From Streptacidiphilus sp. ASG 303 (GTDB lineage Bacteria; Actinomycetota; Actinomycetes; Streptomycetales; Streptomycetaceae), in contig NZ_JAJLRA010000003.1 of the NCBI RefSeq assembly GCF_020991365.1, forward strand, positions 62,001 to 126,000: 64,000 nt of DNA, given 5' to 3'. Below, one piece after another: positions 33,978 through 42,074 of this stretch; positions within the stretch are counted from its first letter, which is position 1, and each line of letters begins with the position of its first letter. Below the pieces are notes generated by a model that was not told the DNA's origin, did not search any database, and worked only from the letters and a program-made list of their open reading frames with translations. Both the position numbers and the translations under genes were made by a program.

Positions 33978-34003
33978 GGGGTTTTCGGGCTACCCTCACG
34001 TGC

Positions 34004-34825
34004 GTGAACGCTTCCCCGCAGTCGGTGGCCCCCGCCGACCCCCACGCCGCCGCCCGCACCGCCGCCGCCCGCCTCCGCGAGCTCACCGGGGCGGAGCGCC
34101 ACGACGTCGCGCTGGTCATGGGCTCCGGCTGGGTGCCCGCCGCCGACGCGCTCGGCGCACCCGAGCACGAGTTCCCGGTCACCGAGCTGCCCGGATTCCC
34201 CGCACCGGCCGTCGCGGGCCACGCGGGCACCGTCCGCTCGCTGCGGATCGGCGCGAAGCGCGCCCTGGTCTTCCTGGGCCGCACGCACTACTACGAGGGC
34301 CACGGCGTCGCCGCCGTCGCCCACGGCGTGCGCACCGCGGTCGCGGCCGGCTGCTCCACCGTCGTGCTCACCAACGGCTGCGGCGGCCTGCGGCCGACCT
34401 TCAGCCCCGGCCAGCCGGTGCTGATCAGCGACCACATCAACCTCACGGCGACCTCCCCCATCCTCGGCGCCAACTTCGTCGACCTCACCGACCTCTACTC
34501 GCCGCGGCTGCGGGCCCTGTGCAAGGAGGTGGACCCCTCCCTGGAGGAGGGCGTCTACGTCCAGTTCCCCGGCCCGCACTACGAGACCCCGGCCGAGATC
34601 GGCATGGTCCGGGCCATCGGCGGCGACCTGGTGGGCATGTCCACCACCCTGGAGGCCATCGCCGCCCGCGAGGCCGGCGCCGAGGTGCTCGGCATCTCCC
34701 TGGTCACCAACCTCGCCGCCGGCATGACCGGCGAGCCCCTCAACCACGAGGAGGTCCTGGAGGCCGGCCGCTCGTCCGCCTCCCGGATGGGTGCGCTGCT
34801 GGCCAAGGTCCTCGAGCGGATCTGA
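34004..34825 (+). CDS. Purine nucleoside phosphorylase
   Basis: 273 residues from GTG 34004. TACCCT (33991-33996) lies 7 nt upstream and no Shine-Dalgarno is seen, so it is probably leaderless. PNP family II features: [43 protein letters not shown] with the base-site region, [14 protein letters not shown] and VTNLAAGM. It cleaves (deoxy)inosine and (deoxy)guanosine with phosphate to give the base and (deoxy)ribose 1-phosphate. A phosphosugar mutase gene follows by 140 bp, after a hairpin. An operator palindrome lies over the -35 region. Confidence 0.93.
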
Positions 34826-34965: not shown

Positions 34966-36696
34966 ATGGCGCTCGCACCCGAGAACGACCTGCTCAAGCG
35001 GGCCCGCACCTGGCTCGCCGAGGACCCCGACGAGGAGACCCGCGAGGAGCTGCGCGCCCTGCTGGCCGCCGCCGAGGGCGGCGAGCCCTCCGAGCGCGAG
35101 TGCCGCGCCTGGTCCGAGCTGGCGTCCCGCTTCTCCGGCACCCTGCAGTTCGGCACCGCGGGCCTGCGCGGCGAACTGGGCGCCGGGCCGATGCGGATGA
35201 ACCGCGCCGTGGTGATCCGCGCCGCCGCCGGCCTCGCGGCGTACCTGCGGCACGAGGGCCACGGCGGCGGCCTGGTCGTCGTCGGCTACGACGCCCGCCA
35301 CAAGTCGTACGACTTCGCCCGCGACACCGCCGCCGTCATGGTCGGCGCCGGGCTGCGCGCCGCCCTGCTGCCGCACCCGCTGCCCACCCCCGTGCTGGCC
35401 TTCGCGGTCCGGCACCTGGGCGCGGTCGCGGGCGTCACCGTCACCGCCAGCCACAACCCGCCGCGCGACAACGGCTACAAGGTCTACCTCGGCGACGGCG
35501 CGCAGATCGTGCCCCCCGCCGACGCCGCCATCGCCGCGAGGATCGACGCCGTCGCCTCCCTGCACCAGGTCGAGCTCGCCGCCGACGGCTGGGAGGTGCT
35601 GCCCGCCCACGGCGAGGGCGGCATCGTGGACGCCTACCTGGACCGCGCCGCCGCCGTCACCGACCCGCACACCCCGCGCGACCTGTCGGTGGTCTACACG
35701 CCGCTGCACGGCGTGGGCCGCGACGTCCTGCTCGCCGCCTTCGCCCGCGCGGGCTTCGCCGCGCCGACCGTGGTCGCCGAGCAGGCCGAGCCGGACCCGG
35801 ACTTCCCCACCGTCGCCTTCCCCAACCCGGAGGAGCCGGGCGCGATGGACCTGGCCTTCCGCACGGCCGCCGACGTCCGCCCCGACCTCGTCATCGCCAA
35901 CGACCCGGACGCCGACCGCTGCGCCGTCGCGGTGCCCGACCCCGGCAGCCCGATGGGCTGGCGGATGCTGCGCGGCGACGAGGTGGGCGCGCTGCTCGCC
36001 GCCCACCTGGTGGCCAAGCACGTCGAGGGCACCTTCGCCACCACCGTCGTCTCCTCCTCGCTGCTCTCCCGGATCGCCGCCGCCTCGGACCTCGCGTACG
36101 CCGAGACCCTGACCGGCTTCAAGTGGATCTCCCGGGCCCCGGGCCTGCGCTACGGCTACGAGGAGGCGCTGGGCTACTGCGTCGACCCCGAGGGCGTCCG
36201 CGACAAGGACGGGATCACCGCAGCCCTGCTGGTCGCCGAGCTGGCCGCCACCCTCAAGGCCTCCGGCCGCACCGTGGCGGACCTGCTGGACGACCTGGCC
36301 CTGGAGTACGGCCTGCACGCCACCGACCAGCTCTCGGTGCGGGTGGCCGACCTGTCGCTGATCGCCGACGCCATGCGGCGGCTGCGCGCGCACCCGCCGG
36401 CGTCGCTGGCGGGCCTGGTCGTGGAGTCCGCCGACGACCTGGAGGAGGGGTCCGCGGACCTGCCGCCCACGGACGGCCTGCGCTACCGCCTCTCCGGCGC
36501 CACCGTCGGGTCGGCGGTCCGCTCGGCCCGGGTCGTGGTGCGGCCCTCCGGGACCGAGCCGAAGCTCAAGTGCTACCTGGAGGCCGTGGTGCCGGTCGGC
36601 TCCGCCGCCGGCCTGCCGGCCGCCCGCGCCGCGGCGGCCGAGGTGCTCACCGCGCTGAGGAAGGACGTCGCCGCGGCGGCGGGCATCGACGCGTAG
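34966..36696 (+). CDS. Phosphosugar mutase, PGM2/phosphopentomutase-like
   Basis: 576 residues; ATG 34966 follows AGGAG. The alpha-D-phosphohexomutase superfamily motifs are complete: VTASHNPPRDNGYK with the phosphoserine (about residue 164), NDPDADRCAVAVPD for Mg2+, the sugar-specificity loop GYEEALGYCVDPEG, and RPSGTEPKLKCYLE for phosphate. It moves phosphate between positions of a sugar. Length and context, directly after purine nucleoside phosphorylase, fit PGM2-type enzymes that act on (deoxy)ribose 1-phosphate, giving the substrate of DeoC. Annotation as phosphomannomutase/phosphoglucomutase is equally common. No separate deoB is in the window. Confidence 0.88.
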   Translation: MALAPENDLLKRARTWLAEDPDEETREELRALLAAAEGGEPSERECRAWSELASRFSGTLQFGTAGLRGELGAGPMRMNRAVVIRAAAGLAAYLRHEGHGGGLVVVGYDARHKSYDFARDTAAVMVGAGLRAALLPHPLPTPVLAFAVRHLGAVAGVTVTASHNPPRDNGYKVYLGDGAQIVPPADAAIAARIDAVASLHQVELAADGWEVLPAHGEGGIVDAYLDRAAAVTDPHTPRDLSVVYTPLHGVGRDVLLAAFARAGFAAPTVVAEQAEPDPDFPTVAFPNPEEPGAMDLAFRTAADVRPDLVIANDPDADRCAVAVPDPGSPMGWRMLRGDEVGALLAAHLVAKHVEGTFATTVVSSSLLSRIAAASDLAYAETLTGFKWISRAPGLRYGYEEALGYCVDPEGVRDKDGITAALLVAELAATLKASGRTVADLLDDLALEYGLHATDQLSVRVADLSLIADAMRRLRAHPPASLAGLVVESADDLEEGSADLPPTDGLRYRLSGATVGSAVRSARVVVRPSGTEPKLKCYLEAVVPVGSAAGLPAARAAAAEVLTALRKDVAAAAGIDA

Positions 36697-37652: not shown

Positions 37653-38645
37653 GTGACTATGTCCACTGCTGCAGCCAACGCCCCCGGTGCCGTGGGCGGC
37701 GGCCTCGCCGACGTCGCCGCGTCCGAGGCCTCCCTGCGCCGCTTCCTGCACGGCCTGCCCGGCGTCGACGCCGTGGGCCTGGAGGCCCGCGCCGCGTCCC
37801 TGGGCACCCGCTCGATCAAGACGACGGCCAAGGCCCAGGCCATCGACCTCGCGATCTCGATGATCGACCTGACCACGCTGGAGGGTGCGGACACCGCGGG
37901 CAAGGTCCGCTCGCTCTGCACCAAGGCGAAGAGCCCCGACCCGGGCGACCCCTCCTGCCCGCGGGTCGCCGCGGTCTGCGTCTACCCCGACATGGTCGCC
38001 ACGGCGCGGGCCGCGGTCCAGGGCACCGGGATCAACGTCGCCTCCGTCGCCACCGCCTTCCCCTCGGGCCGGGCCGGCCTGCCGGTGAAGCTGGCCGACA
38101 CCGCCGAGGCGGTCGCCGCCGGCGCCGACGAGATCGACATGGTGATCGACCGGGGCGCCTTCCTCTCCGGCCGGTACCTGCGGGTCTTCGAGGAGATCGC
38201 CGCCGTGAAGGAGGCCTGCCGCCGCACGGACGGCCCCGACGCCCACCTCAAGGTGATCTTCGAGACCGGCGAGCTGCAGACCTACGACAACGTCCGCCGC
38301 GCCTCCTGGCTGGCGATGCTGGCCGGCGCCGACTTCATCAAGACCTCGACCGGCAAGGTGGCCGTCAACGCCACCCCGCCGGTGACGCTGCTGATGCTGG
38401 AGGCGGTCCGCGACTTCCGCGCCGCCACCGGCACGCAGGTCGGCGTGAAGCCGGCCGGCGGCATCCGCACCACCAAGGACGCCATGAAGTACCTGGTCAT
38501 GGTGAACGAGACGCTCGGCGACGGCTGGCTCTCCCCGGACTGGTTCCGCTTCGGCGCCTCCAGCCTCCTCAACGACCTGCTGATGCAGCGTCAGAAGCTG
38601 ACCACCGGCCGGTACTCCGGTCCCGACTACGTGACGGTGGACTGA
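37653..38645 (+). CDS. deoC: Deoxyribose-phosphate aldolase
   Basis: 330 residues if started at GTG 37653 (6 nt after TATGCT, leaderless); ATG 37659 and GTG 37650 are alternatives. The class I aldolase Schiff-base lysine lies in ADFIKTSTGKVAVNATP, a second conserved lysine in VGVKPAGGIRT, and the catalytic Asp region in DEIDMVIDRGAFLSG. It splits 2-deoxyribose 5-phosphate into acetaldehyde and glyceraldehyde 3-phosphate, ending deoxynucleoside breakdown. An aldehyde dehydrogenase gene follows by 5 bp and may consume the acetaldehyde. An operator palindrome sits in the promoter. Confidence 0.94.
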   Translation: MTMSTAAANAPGAVGGGLADVAASEASLRRFLHGLPGVDAVGLEARAASLGTRSIKTTAKAQAIDLAISMIDLTTLEGADTAGKVRSLCTKAKSPDPGDPSCPRVAAVCVYPDMVATARAAVQGTGINVASVATAFPSGRAGLPVKLADTAEAVAAGADEIDMVIDRGAFLSGRYLRVFEEIAAVKEACRRTDGPDAHLKVIFETGELQTYDNVRRASWLAMLAGADFIKTSTGKVAVNATPPVTLLMLEAVRDFRAATGTQVGVKPAGGIRTTKDAMKYLVMVNETLGDGWLSPDWFRFGASSLLNDLLMQRQKLTTGRYSGPDYVTVD

Positions 38646-38650
38646 GCCCG

Positions 38651-40234
38651 ATGGCCAACCCCCAGAAGAACAGCGACCAGAAGAACAAGAAGGCCGCCCC
38701 GGCCGAGGCCCCGGCGGCTCCGGCCACCCCGGCCGCCCCGGCCGCCCCGGCGGCGGACGGCGGCTTCCCCGGGAAGCTCTTCTCCTACGCCCCCGCCCCC
38801 GAGTCCCCCGCCGCCGCGGGGGAGATCGCCTCCTCCTACGGGCACTTCATCGGCGGCGAGTTCACCGAGAGCGCGGGCCGCGAGGCGCTGAAGACGGTGA
38901 ACCCGGCGACCGAGGAGGTGCTCGCCGAGTTCGCGCAGGGCACCGAGGAGGACGTCGACCGCGCGGTGCGGGCCGCCCGCGACGCCTTCCCCGCCTGGTC
39001 CGCGCTGCCCGGCGCCGAGCGCGCCAAGTACCTCTTCCGGATCGCCCGGATCGTCCAGGAGCGCAGCCGCGAGCTGGCCGTGCTGGAGTCGATCGACAAC
39101 GGCAAGCCCATCCGCGAGACCCGCGACGTGGACCTGCCGCTGGTCGCCGCGCACTTCTTCTACTACGCCGGCTGGGCCGACAAGCTGGAGCACGCCGGGT
39201 TCGGCCGGAGGACGACGGACGGCACGAGCGGCCCGGCCCCCAGGCCGCTGGGCGTGGCCGCGCAGGTCATCCCGTGGAACTTCCCGCTGCTGATGCTGGC
39301 GTGGAAGATCGCCCCGGCGCTGGCCACCGGCAACACCGTCGTCCTCAAGCCCGCCGAGACCACCCCGCTGACCGCGCTGCGGTTCGCGGAGATCGTCCGC
39401 CAGGCCGGGCTGCCGGCGGGCGTCGTCAACATCGTCACCGGCGACGGCCGCACCGGCGCCGCCCTGACCGCCCACCCGGACGTCGCCAAGGTCGCCTTCA
39501 CCGGCTCCACCGAGGTCGGCCGCTCCATCGCCCGGGGCCTCGCGGGCACCCGGAAGAAGCTGTCGCTGGAGCTGGGCGGCAAGGCCGCCAACATCGTCTT
39601 CGACGACGCCCCGGTCGACCAGGCCGTCGAGGGCATCGTCGACGGCATCTTCTTCAACCAGGGCCACGTCTGCTGCGCGGGCTCCCGCCTGCTGGTGCAG
39701 GAGTCGGTCCACGACGAGGTGCTGGACGCGCTCAAGCGGCGCATGTCGACGCTGCGCGTCGGCGACCCGCTGGACAAGAACACCGACGTCGGCGCGATCA
39801 ACTCCGCCGCCCAGCTGGCCCGCATCCGCGAGCTGTCCGCGGCCGGCGAGGCCGAGGGCGCCGAGCGCTGGTCCCCGGCGTGCGAGCTGCCCTCGAGCGG
39901 CTTCTGGTTCGCCCCGACCGTCTTCACCGGCGTGGGCCAGGCCCACCGGATCGCCCGCGAGGAGGTCTTCGGCCCGGTGCTGTCGGTGCTGACCTTCCGC
40001 ACCCCGGCCGAGGCCGTGGAGAAGGCCAACAACACCCCCTACGGCCTCTCCGCCGGCGTCTGGACGGAGAAGGGCTCCCGCATCCTGTGGATGGCGAGCC
40101 GCCTGCGCGCGGGCGTGGTGTGGTCCAACACCTTCAACAAGTTCGACCCGACCTCGCCCTTCGGCGGCTACAAGGAGTCGGGCTACGGCCGCGAGGGCGG
40201 CCGCCACGGCCTGGAGGCGTACCTCGATGTCTGA
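38651..40234 (+). CDS. Aldehyde dehydrogenase (NAD(P)+-dependent)
   Basis: 527 residues; ATG 38651 starts 5 bp after deoC and the upstream end of deoC is purine-rich. The first 45 residues are a Lys/Pro/Ala-rich extension, rare in the family. The ALDH core shows VIPWNFPLLMLAWK with the catalytic asparagine, LELGGKAANIV with the general base Glu, and NQGHVCCAGSRLL with the nucleophilic cysteine. It oxidises an aldehyde to the acid; acetaldehyde from DeoC is the most likely substrate from context. It overlaps the next ALDH-like gene by 8 bp, so the two are translated together. Confidence 0.9.
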   Translation: MANPQKNSDQKNKKAAPAEAPAAPATPAAPAAPAADGGFPGKLFSYAPAPESPAAAGEIASSYGHFIGGEFTESAGREALKTVNPATEEVLAEFAQGTEEDVDRAVRAARDAFPAWSALPGAERAKYLFRIARIVQERSRELAVLESIDNGKPIRETRDVDLPLVAAHFFYYAGWADKLEHAGFGRRTTDGTSGPAPRPLGVAAQVIPWNFPLLMLAWKIAPALATGNTVVLKPAETTPLTALRFAEIVRQAGLPAGVVNIVTGDGRTGAALTAHPDVAKVAFTGSTEVGRSIARGLAGTRKKLSLELGGKAANIVFDDAPVDQAVEGIVDGIFFNQGHVCCAGSRLLVQESVHDEVLDALKRRMSTLRVGDPLDKNTDVGAINSAAQLARIRELSAAGEAEGAERWSPACELPSSGFWFAPTVFTGVGQAHRIAREEVFGPVLSVLTFRTPAEAVEKANNTPYGLSAGVWTEKGSRILWMASRLRAGVVWSNTFNKFDPTSPFGGYKESGYGREGGRHGLEAYLDV

Positions 40235-41141
40235 CCCCGTGATGTCCGGCGCTGCGGCGCGGCTCGACGTCTTCAAGACCTACAAGCTCTTCGTGGGCGG
40301 GAAGTTCCCCCGCTCCGAGAGCGGACGGGTGTACGAGGTGACCGACAGCAAGGGCGGGTGGCTCGCCAACGCGCCGCTCGGCACCCGCAAGGACGTCCGC
40401 GACGCGGTGGCCGCCGCCCGCAAGGCCTTCCCCGGCTGGTCGGGCGCCACCGCCTACAACCGCGGCCAGATCCTGTACCGGGCCGCCGAGATGCTGCAGG
40501 GCCGCCGCGAGCAGTTCGCCGCCGAGGTGGCGGCGGGCGAGGGCACCGGCGCCGAGCGGGCCGCCGCCCTGGTGGACGCCGCCGTCGACCGCCTGGTCTG
40601 GTACGCGGGCTGGACCGACAAGGTCGCCCAGGTCGCGGGCGCCGCCAACCCGGTGGCCGGGCCGTACTTCAACCTGTCCACGCCCGAGCCGTCCGGCGTG
40701 GTCGGCGTCGTCGCCCCGCAGGCCGGGCCCGGCCACTCGCTGCTCGGCCTGGTCTCCGTGGTCGCCCCGGCGGTCGCGGCGGGCAACACCGTCGTGGTGG
40801 TCGCCTCGGAGGCCGCGCCGCTCCCCGCCCTCTCCCTGGGCGAGGTGCTGGCCACCTCCGACCTGCCCGGCGGCGTCGTCAACATCGTCTCCGGCCGGGT
40901 GCGGGACACCGCCCCGACGCTCGCCTCCCACCAGGACGTCAACGGCCTGGACCTGGCGGGCGCGGACGCCGGGGGCCCCGGCTCGGCAGCCGCCCTGGAG
41001 GCCGCCGCCGCGGACACCCTCAAGCGGGTGCTGCGCCCGGCGCCCGAGCCGGCCGCCGAGGACTGGACCGCCGACCCCGGCACCGGCCGCCTGCTGGCCT
41101 TCCTGGAGACCAAGACGGTCTGGCACCCCATGGGGATCTGA
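40227..41141 (+). CDS. Truncated, probably inactive aldehyde dehydrogenase-family protein
   Basis: 304 residues from ATG 40227, overlapping the active ALDH gene by 8 bp. It aligns by eye with the N-terminal two thirds of ALDHs: KLFVGGKFPRSESG, a cofactor-binding region, GNTVVVVASEAAPLPAL and LPGGVVNIVSG. The catalytic asparagine loop reads APQAGPGH instead of PWNFP, there is no ELGGK, and the part holding the catalytic cysteine is absent; the protein ends KTVWHPMGI. It is not a frameshifted gene: codon use is normal and it starts at a clean overlap. A structural or regulatory partner of the full-length ALDH is likely. Confidence 0.82.
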   Translation: MSDPVMSGAAARLDVFKTYKLFVGGKFPRSESGRVYEVTDSKGGWLANAPLGTRKDVRDAVAAARKAFPGWSGATAYNRGQILYRAAEMLQGRREQFAAEVAAGEGTGAERAAALVDAAVDRLVWYAGWTDKVAQVAGAANPVAGPYFNLSTPEPSGVVGVVAPQAGPGHSLLGLVSVVAPAVAAGNTVVVVASEAAPLPALSLGEVLATSDLPGGVVNIVSGRVRDTAPTLASHQDVNGLDLAGADAGGPGSAAALEAAAADTLKRVLRPAPEPAAEDWTADPGTGRLLAFLETKTVWHPMGI

Positions 41142-41429: not shown

Positions 41430-42074
41430 GTGAGCGACTCCCCCGTGAACCCCGTGCCGATCCTCCCTGCCCGCGTCGTGCTGCTGTCCGGGCCCTCCGG
41501 ATCGGGGAAGTCGTCACTGGCCGAGCGGATCGGACTGCCGGTCCTCCAGCTCGACGACTTCTACAAGGACGGGGACGACCCCACGCTGCCGCTGCTGCCG
41601 GACGGCAGCGGCGCGGTGGACTGGGACTCCCCGCTCTCCTGGCACGCCGAGGACGCGATGGCCGCGATCCGGCTCCTCGCGGAGACCGGGCGGGCCGAGG
41701 TGCCGGTGTACTCCATCCCCGACAACGGCCGGACCGGCACCCGGGTGCTGGAGCTGGCCGGCGCCGCCGCGTTCGTGGCGGAGGGGATCTTCGCCGCGGA
41801 GATCGCGGCGCGGTGCGCGGCCGAGGGCCTGCTCGGCGACGCGATCTGCCTGCGGAACCGGCCGCTGACCACCGCCTGGCGCCGCTTCCGCCGCGACGTG
41901 CGGGAGGGCCGCAAGTCGGTGCCGTTCCTGCTCCGGCGCGGCTGGCGGCTGATGCGGGCCGAGCGCGGGATCGTGGCCCGGCAGGAGGCGCTGGGCGCGT
42001 ACACGTGCGCGGGGGCGGAGGCGCTGCGCCGGGTGCAGGCGGTGGCCGAGGTCCGGGAGCCGGCGGCGGTCTGA
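41430..42074 (+). CDS. Uridine kinase-like P-loop kinase
   Basis: 214 residues from GTG 41430, with CAGACT 8 nt upstream; probably leaderless. The P-loop GPSGSGKSS is at about residues 21-29. QLDDFYKDGDDPTLP is the uridine kinase/PRK-type acceptor segment, VDWDSPLSW follows as in uridine kinases, and FAAEIAARC plus RFRRDVREGRKS form the lid region. It probably phosphorylates uridine or a related nucleoside with ATP/GTP. Position among nucleoside genes supports this. Substrate within the uridine kinase/pantothenate kinase/PRK group is not proven. Confidence 0.83.
   Translation: MSDSPVNPVPILPARVVLLSGPSGSGKSSLAERIGLPVLQLDDFYKDGDDPTLPLLPDGSGAVDWDSPLSWHAEDAMAAIRLLAETGRAEVPVYSIPDNGRTGTRVLELAGAAAFVAEGIFAAEIAARCAAEGLLGDAICLRNRPLTTAWRRFRRDVREGRKSVPFLLRRGWRLMRAERGIVARQEALGAYTCAGAEALRRVQAVAEVREPAAV

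Follow-up and report, generated by a model that had tools for sequence, protein, structure and literature searches.

A probable two-gene form of ALDH16 encoded beside deoC in Streptacidiphilus sp. ASG 303

In classic aldehyde dehydrogenases (ALDHs) of the ALDH1/ALDH2 type, each subunit has a C-terminal strand of its own and pairs with another copy of itself. In single-chain ALDH16, the C-terminal domain lies against the catalytic part of the same polypeptide, where a second ALDH subunit would otherwise sit, and the ALDH16 dimer is a special form that mimics the classic ALDH tetramer. The primary paper on the ALDH16 structure is reportedly that of Liu and Tanner from 2019. Human ALDH16A1 is one protein with two ALDH-like domains. 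Passages of two publications describe the human protein as a pseudoenzyme of unclear function that lacks catalytic residues and is linked to gout (PMC10650815; PMC8160307), and a section of the first, a review, lists its substrate as unknown (PMC10650815).

In this study, we analysed a 64,000-nucleotide stretch of the Streptacidiphilus sp. ASG 303 genome, here called the window, with a focus on two overlapping ALDH-like genes. These genes and the features around them are as follows.

33983..34825, + strand: purine nucleoside phosphorylase (Pfam PNP_UDP_1, E 1.9e-41); tested stretch, true start not set
35014..36696, + strand: phosphoglucomutase/phosphomannomutase-family enzyme (Pfam PGM_PMM domains I-IV); tested stretch, true start not set
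37659..38645, + strand: deoC, deoxyribose-phosphate aldolase, directly upstream of gene 1; start codon chosen by eye
38651..40234, + strand: gene 1 (ATG 38651 to TGA 40234; 527 aa), putative ALDH16 catalytic half in which Asn, Glu and Cys are present
38651..38758, + strand: N-terminal tail of gene 1 (residues 1-36), rich in Pro and Ala and predicted to be disordered
40213..40217, + strand: GGAGG, Shine-Dalgarno-like, 9 nt 5' of the gene 2 ATG
40227..40234, + strand: ATGTCTGA, the 8-bp overlap of the gene 1 stop and the gene 2 start, in different frames
40227..41141, + strand: gene 2 (ATG 40227 to TGA 41141), putative non-catalytic half of ALDH16 (304 aa), a Rossmann-type domain and beta-flap including the C-terminal strand

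The preliminary description of this locus had reported an intact ALDH gene that overlaps by 8 bp a homologue without catalytic residues, and this arrangement was confirmed from the sequence (38651-40234 and 40227-41141). It had also called the codon use of gene 2 normal, which held, as third-position GC was 0.987 in gene 2, near the values of gene 1 (0.996) and deoC (0.988). The results of Pfam analysis showed that gene 1 matches residues 1-457 of the 461 in the Aldedh model (E 2.4e-167), and gene 2 only residues 8-218 (E 5.6e-38). Among the 43 NCBIfam families matched, gene 1 scored below the cut-off of each of the 25 that were listed. Its N-terminal tail lies within residues 1-42 of the joined model described below, which were predicted with pLDDT below 50. 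Five fused homologues whose starts were inspected, with the nearest ATG taken, begin at a YxPAPE motif, which comes after the tail of gene 1.

Gene 1 carries the catalytic motifs of an ALDH, namely the Asn (N210), the Glu (E307) and a Cys pair (C341/C342), and we infer from these kept residues that its product would oxidise aldehydes with NAD. The Pfam match of gene 2 stops before the Glu and Cys region. We compared 200 domain pairs from split and fused loci, a set that includes some loci of one genome fetched twice and is not 200 independent genomes. The results showed that the Cys pair and the Glu were each retained in 85 of the 86 split and all 114 fused catalytic halves, and the Asn in 85/86 split and 113/114 fused halves, the latter with one unread letter. 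Among the gene 2-type domains, PWN was found in 0/200 and G[QH]xC in 1/200, which, together with the early end of the Pfam match, bears out the earlier claim that gene 2 is catalytically dead.

The sole exception among the split catalytic halves came from a genome of the same family (G016; loci L163 and L292), in which the catalytic half is without Cys, Glu and Asn. The reading frame of this half is open and shares 49% identity with gene 1 of the window (E 3.6e-128), and a search of this genome, the one of its genus covered here, gave no closer copy of gene 1. The genome retains gene 2 and deoC beside the degenerate half. The loss of catalytic residues resembles that of human ALDH16A1, and in G016 the complex may serve a role besides catalysis.

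We searched the PDB with both products. Gene 1 matched the ALDH16 of Loktanella sp. best (6mvr residues 11-474, E 4.1e-169), and its best match outside ALDH16 reached E 1.3e-124; the best match of gene 2 was residues 494-766 of the same structure (E 3.5e-57), and its best match outside ALDH16 reached E 2.6e-29. Because both match 6mvr collinearly, the gene pair accounts for almost all of the ALDH16 chain. Gene 2 and five further copies from actinobacteria were 39-45% identical to the Loktanella domain. The Loktanella enzyme (6mvr/6mvs/6mvt/6mvu) and the gene pair have the same domain order, predicted fold and relative placement; in both, the catalytic residues are in the first domain, and a strand that is missing there is present in the second. 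The Loktanella enzyme is one chain, whereas the window has two genes, and the two forms make up separate groups in trees. Human ALDH16A1, compared here by description, is one chain and dead, in contrast to the two genes of the window, of which gene 1 has catalytic residues.

We next compared the C-termini. Gene 1 shares its fold and catalytic residues with classic ALDH1/ALDH2 and ends at EAYLDV; its last residue, 527, aligns with residue 505 of 517 in human ALDH2 (5l13), so that gene 1 is about 12 residues shorter than the classic enzymes. Seven of the eight ordinary ALDHs inspected extend past this point with a further strand that contains a Lys, for example EAYTEVKSVWVNLK, and the eighth (L007) differs there. 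Gene 2 ends in FLETKTVWHPMGI, in which the last ALDH beta-strand is kept as ETKTVWHPMG. Across the 200 domain pairs, the strand pattern was found in 0/200 catalytic halves, and the strict motif ExKTxWxPxG was present in 66/86 split and 41/114 fused second domains. A relaxed motif near the end, K[TN]xWxP, which was picked after the strict result was known, was present in 77/86 split and 109/114 fused second domains.

We modelled gene 2 with AlphaFold from an alignment of 53 sequences (pLDDT 87.0, pTM 0.87). The model has strands at residues 139-142, 147-155 and 293-301, and it aligns with whole ALDHs up to about residue 497; with 1cw3, for example, its residues 10-304 match residues 12-497 (279 residues, 1.8 Å). 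The statement in the preliminary description that gene 2 keeps only the N-terminal ALDH part is thus wrong, as the last beta-strand is retained and the fold aligns with 1cw3 from 12 to 497; in this model, gene 2 is an ALDH minus its catalytic domain, with the first and last pieces retained. By itself, the gene 2 model did not single out ALDH16 among ALDHs in the fold comparison, with Z 37.3-37.4 against 6mvr/6mvs/6mvu tied with many ordinary ALDHs. The preliminary description had also missed that the pair corresponds to the halves of ALDH16, which is known as a single chain and has had its structure solved, and that the strand missing from gene 1 is present in gene 2.

The two products were also modelled as one chain joined in silico, without templates and with an alignment of 52 of 75 usable naturally fused proteins (pLDDT 84.4, pTM 0.82). 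For the joined chain, 730 of 751 residues could be aligned with 6mvs (1.8 Å, Z 52.8) and 463-479 residues with single-domain ALDHs (Z 47.6-50.3), and the Foldseek TM-score by target against three ALDH16 entries was 0.92-0.94. The Z of 52.2-52.8 for ALDH16 barely exceeds that for single-domain ALDHs (at most 50.3), and it is the aligned length that makes the difference. The model shows both proteins to be compatible with the ALDH16 arrangement, and this is compatibility and not binding because the chains were joined and the alignment came from fused relatives.

We described the two forms across phyla; those other than Actinomycetota were identified from the record title of their centre genome, and this genome was included in the count. 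Before counting, two ordinary ALDHs (L199, L200) and a locus that ends before the catalytic half (L258/L288) were dropped. All 58 loci with the pair in a first set of Actinomycetota were split, as were 58 of the 60 regions in a second set that shares genomes with the first, the other two being ordinary ALDHs. Matches in Pseudomonadota were found in 27 of 299 genomes, and 27/27 were fused. A scan of named genomes with the Loktanella domain, a query that favours fused relatives and gives no measure of each form's share, returned 80/80 fused loci among the best 80 of 583, mostly Rhodobacterales by title. One of these records, titled Nocardioides marinus (L069), is fused, of the Rhodobacterales type and 74% identical to the Loktanella domain; transfer, contamination or mislabelling could each account for it. 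Because L069 is fused, the split form in Actinomycetota has one exception.

Both forms were found in two further phyla. In Verrucomicrobiota, 15 of 145 genomes had matches, of which 13 were split, one was fused (L209/L117) and one consisted of a second domain joined to a catalytic-half remnant. The last of these (L251/L290, genome G850) retains only the C-terminal ~90 residues of the catalytic half in front of the second domain, and the rest of that half and deoC were absent from the 2 kb of contig upstream; it is either a truncated copy or an assembly error. In five Verrucomicrobiota, the halves are separated by 1.4-1.9 kb with another gene, which was of the POT transporter type by Pfam in the one tested; because of this intervening gene, the halves must be separate proteins there. 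In two loci of the phylum (L276 and L277), a short open frame of ~140-170 residues takes the position of the transporter gene between the halves. In Gemmatimonadota, 71 of 101 genomes had matches, and the 20 best-scoring loci comprised 11 fused, 8 split and 1 cut. The remaining 51 had open frames of at least 786 residues around the match, as for fused genes, judged by frame length only. One of the 8 split loci (L269/L289, genome G922) has a fused type of sequence interrupted by a TAG, followed by a gap before the second half, and may be a recent fission or an error.

We built a tree of each half from 63 of the 200 domain pairs after identity thinning; both trees were quick ones, built with no bootstrap. 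In the tree of catalytic halves, the ALDH16 rows were separated from the outgroup (99), and the split (97) and fused (99) forms made up separate clades, with the root between them; several outgroup rows and L163 have long branches there, and the program warned that long branches meet. In the tree of gene 2-type domains, all copies grouped together (100), the fused copies grouped with 6mvr (99) and the split copies grouped at 68. On these trees, the two halves appear to have been associated already when the split and fused forms diverged.

Several features of ALDH16 were thus found in the pair: an N-terminal catalytic ALDH (gene 1), a second, non-catalytic ALDH-like domain with Rossmann fold and beta-flap (gene 2), a strand that is absent from the catalytic part and carried by the second domain, and the grouping of both domains with ALDH16 in trees. 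The two domains are not in one polypeptide, being encoded by two genes in different frames, and we therefore call the pair a split variant and not a standard ALDH16. The split ALDH16 is a variant of a known family; no description of it was found in the literature searched, outside which most subscription journals lie, and one may well exist in print.

To assess conservation, we examined 150 genomes of the family. Gene 2 was found in 149 of them, the missing case being a genome 71% complete. The earlier claim that gene 2 is maintained therefore stands, with gene 2 neither absent nor broken in close relatives as a rule. One of the 149 copies (G078:C1:5555265-5556127, locus L152) is in two pieces in different frames, through a frameshift or a sequencing error. 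In a phylum sample of 296 genomes, including that of the window, and with thresholds of at least 225 bits for gene 2 and 1e-130 for gene 1, 71 genomes had a gene 2 match and 70 a gene 1 match other than an ordinary ALDH; both halves were present in 69, neither in 224 and one half in 3. Genomes left out as holding ordinary ALDHs only were G174, G206, G256 and G385 (4 of 75) in the gene 2 search and G256 (1 of 71) in the gene 1 search. In two of the three unpaired cases (G353 and G428), gene 2 is accompanied by a partial gene 1 at a contig end; in the third (G281), gene 1 is cut by the contig end and gene 2 was not seen. Homologues of gene 1 as diverged as that of G016 (E 3.6e-128) fall below the 1e-130 threshold. 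Against ten relatives, dN/dS was 0.21-0.49 for gene 2 and 0.11-0.40 for gene 1, values that are rough and probably too high given third-position GC near 0.99. By these sequence comparisons, gene 2 is evolving under constraint.

We also examined the start of gene 2. The commonest start offsets in Actinomycetota were -8, -4 and -1, and the 8-bp offset was found at 31/58 loci of the first actinobacterial set and 15/58 of the second, in a count that takes the start nearest the stop and so gives some loci a codon later than the conserved ATG. A Shine-Dalgarno-like motif preceded 74 of 92 distinct split starts and was found at 481 of 2266 control positions, a count confounded by the fact that the same codons encode the conserved GLEAY end of gene 1. 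Coupled translation of the two genes appears likely from this arrangement.

To relate the pair to its neighbours, we analysed the surrounding genes. The assignment of deoC is based on NCBIfam TIGR00126 (179.2 bits, cut-off 117.3) and Pfam DeoC, both on 37674-38642. Gene context makes the mutase-family enzyme at 35014..36696 probably a phosphopentomutase, and with its purine nucleoside phosphorylase and aldolase the locus looks like one for deoxynucleoside breakdown. The window's gene order fits the numbering in Streptomyces, where excerpts of two papers give SCO4917 as purine nucleoside phosphorylase and SCO4914 as deoxyribose-phosphate aldolase (PMC3293853, PMC6302529). A PH-domain protein is encoded further upstream of deoC on the opposite strand. 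Downstream, a P-loop protein (41430-42074) has a weak Pfam PRK match, to the uridine kinase family, with E 0.0052, below the cut-off.

The link to deoC extends beyond the window. Overall, deoC was upstream in 149 of 158 regions and in both forms; eight of the others are cut contigs and one is a truncated copy (L290). Among the fused loci (best 80 of 583), deoC was upstream on the same strand in 77/80, at a distance of 46-398 nt from the catalytic-half match, and among the split actinobacterial regions it was on the same strand in 54/58, within 600 nt in 50 and at 0.95-2.6 kb in four. In the seven cases of these two groups without deoC (three fused, four split actinobacterial), the contigs start inside the gene. 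The wider Verrucomicrobiota and Gemmatimonadota regions had deoC in 18/20, the other two being a cut locus (L288) and the remnant copy (L290). Fused relatives of the Loktanella enzyme thus share the upstream deoC. We name acetaldehyde as the substrate mainly because this linkage spans phyla and both forms; going by synteny, the natural substrate is probably the acetaldehyde released by DeoC, and the tie to DeoC proposed in the preliminary description is plausible on these counts. The SPU bacterial microcompartment loci, according to part of one paper, likewise pair an aldolase of the DeoC type with an aldehyde dehydrogenase, and differ in that this dehydrogenase is believed to produce acetyl-CoA inside a shell (PMC4207490).

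Taken together, we consider it very probable that the pair encodes a split ALDH16, composed of a catalytic subunit and a strand-bearing pseudo-ALDH subunit, probably two of each, which probably oxidises the acetaldehyde from DeoC. Gene 1 would encode a catalytic ALDH subunit without the strand that classic ALDHs use for subunit pairing, and gene 2 a pseudo-ALDH subunit made up of a Rossmann-type domain and a beta-flap with that strand, and no catalytic domain. The gene 2 protein would pack on the gene 1 protein where a second ALDH subunit would sit, and the resulting heterodimer would probably pair again to give two of each subunit. The complex would then probably oxidise the acetaldehyde that DeoC releases from deoxyribose-5-phosphate during deoxynucleoside breakdown. 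The gene 2 product is likely a physical partner of the gene 1 product, and it is probably an obligate structural subunit of an ALDH16-type enzyme.

Gene 2 might instead encode an independent regulator or scaffold, one that attaches to gene 1, DeoC or other ALDHs, may inhibit or recruit them, and does not stand in for the ALDH16 C-terminal domain. That gene 2 has its own start and yields a separate chain would suit such a role, and inactive members of enzyme families often act as regulators of the active ones, according to part of a review (PMC10650815). We regard it as unlikely, since gene 2 carries the very strand missing from gene 1, the fused clade has the same two domains in one chain, and the lone gene 1 among the 296 genomes, at the thresholds used, sits at a contig end. 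Ribosomal frameshifting within the 8-bp overlap, which would give a full-length ALDH16 chain, is very improbable. Gene 2 is indeed read in frame +1, and a TGA followed by C occurs in the overlap, but stop and start do not keep a constant offset (-8, -4, -1 and others), the slip from GTC to TCT would be expected to pair badly, and split Verrucomicrobiota have a gap, which holds another gene in five genomes. A programmed frameshift fusion was rejected on the variable offsets and on these gaps and intervening genes.

There is next to no chance that gene 2 arose by recent duplication of gene 1 and is now decaying. Its truncation, its place beside a member of the same superfamily and the one family genome in which it lies in two pieces would fit such a history, but the sampled gene 2-type domains fall into a single clade (support 100), separate from both ordinary ALDHs and domains of the gene 1 type, gene 2 is kept in 149/150 family genomes, and dN/dS is well below 1. 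On these three grounds, a pseudogene or recent duplicate was rejected.

The split ALDH16 bears on the biology of the wider family. The adjacency of both forms to deoC suggests a purpose for the poorly understood ALDH16 family, and its frequency supplies a first substrate candidate. A separate gene for the C-terminal domain in bacteria could be deleted, titrated and restored, which bears on the role of that domain. More tentatively, and with rather less than even confidence, we propose that the founding job of ALDH16, in either form, was to clear the acetaldehyde that DeoC generates during the breakdown of deoxynucleosides, perhaps in a complex with DeoC, and that one old clade has the strand-donating pseudo-ALDH as a separate subunit. 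If this is true, human ALDH16A1 would be the dead descendant of a nucleoside-salvage enzyme, which would fit its reported link to uric acid.
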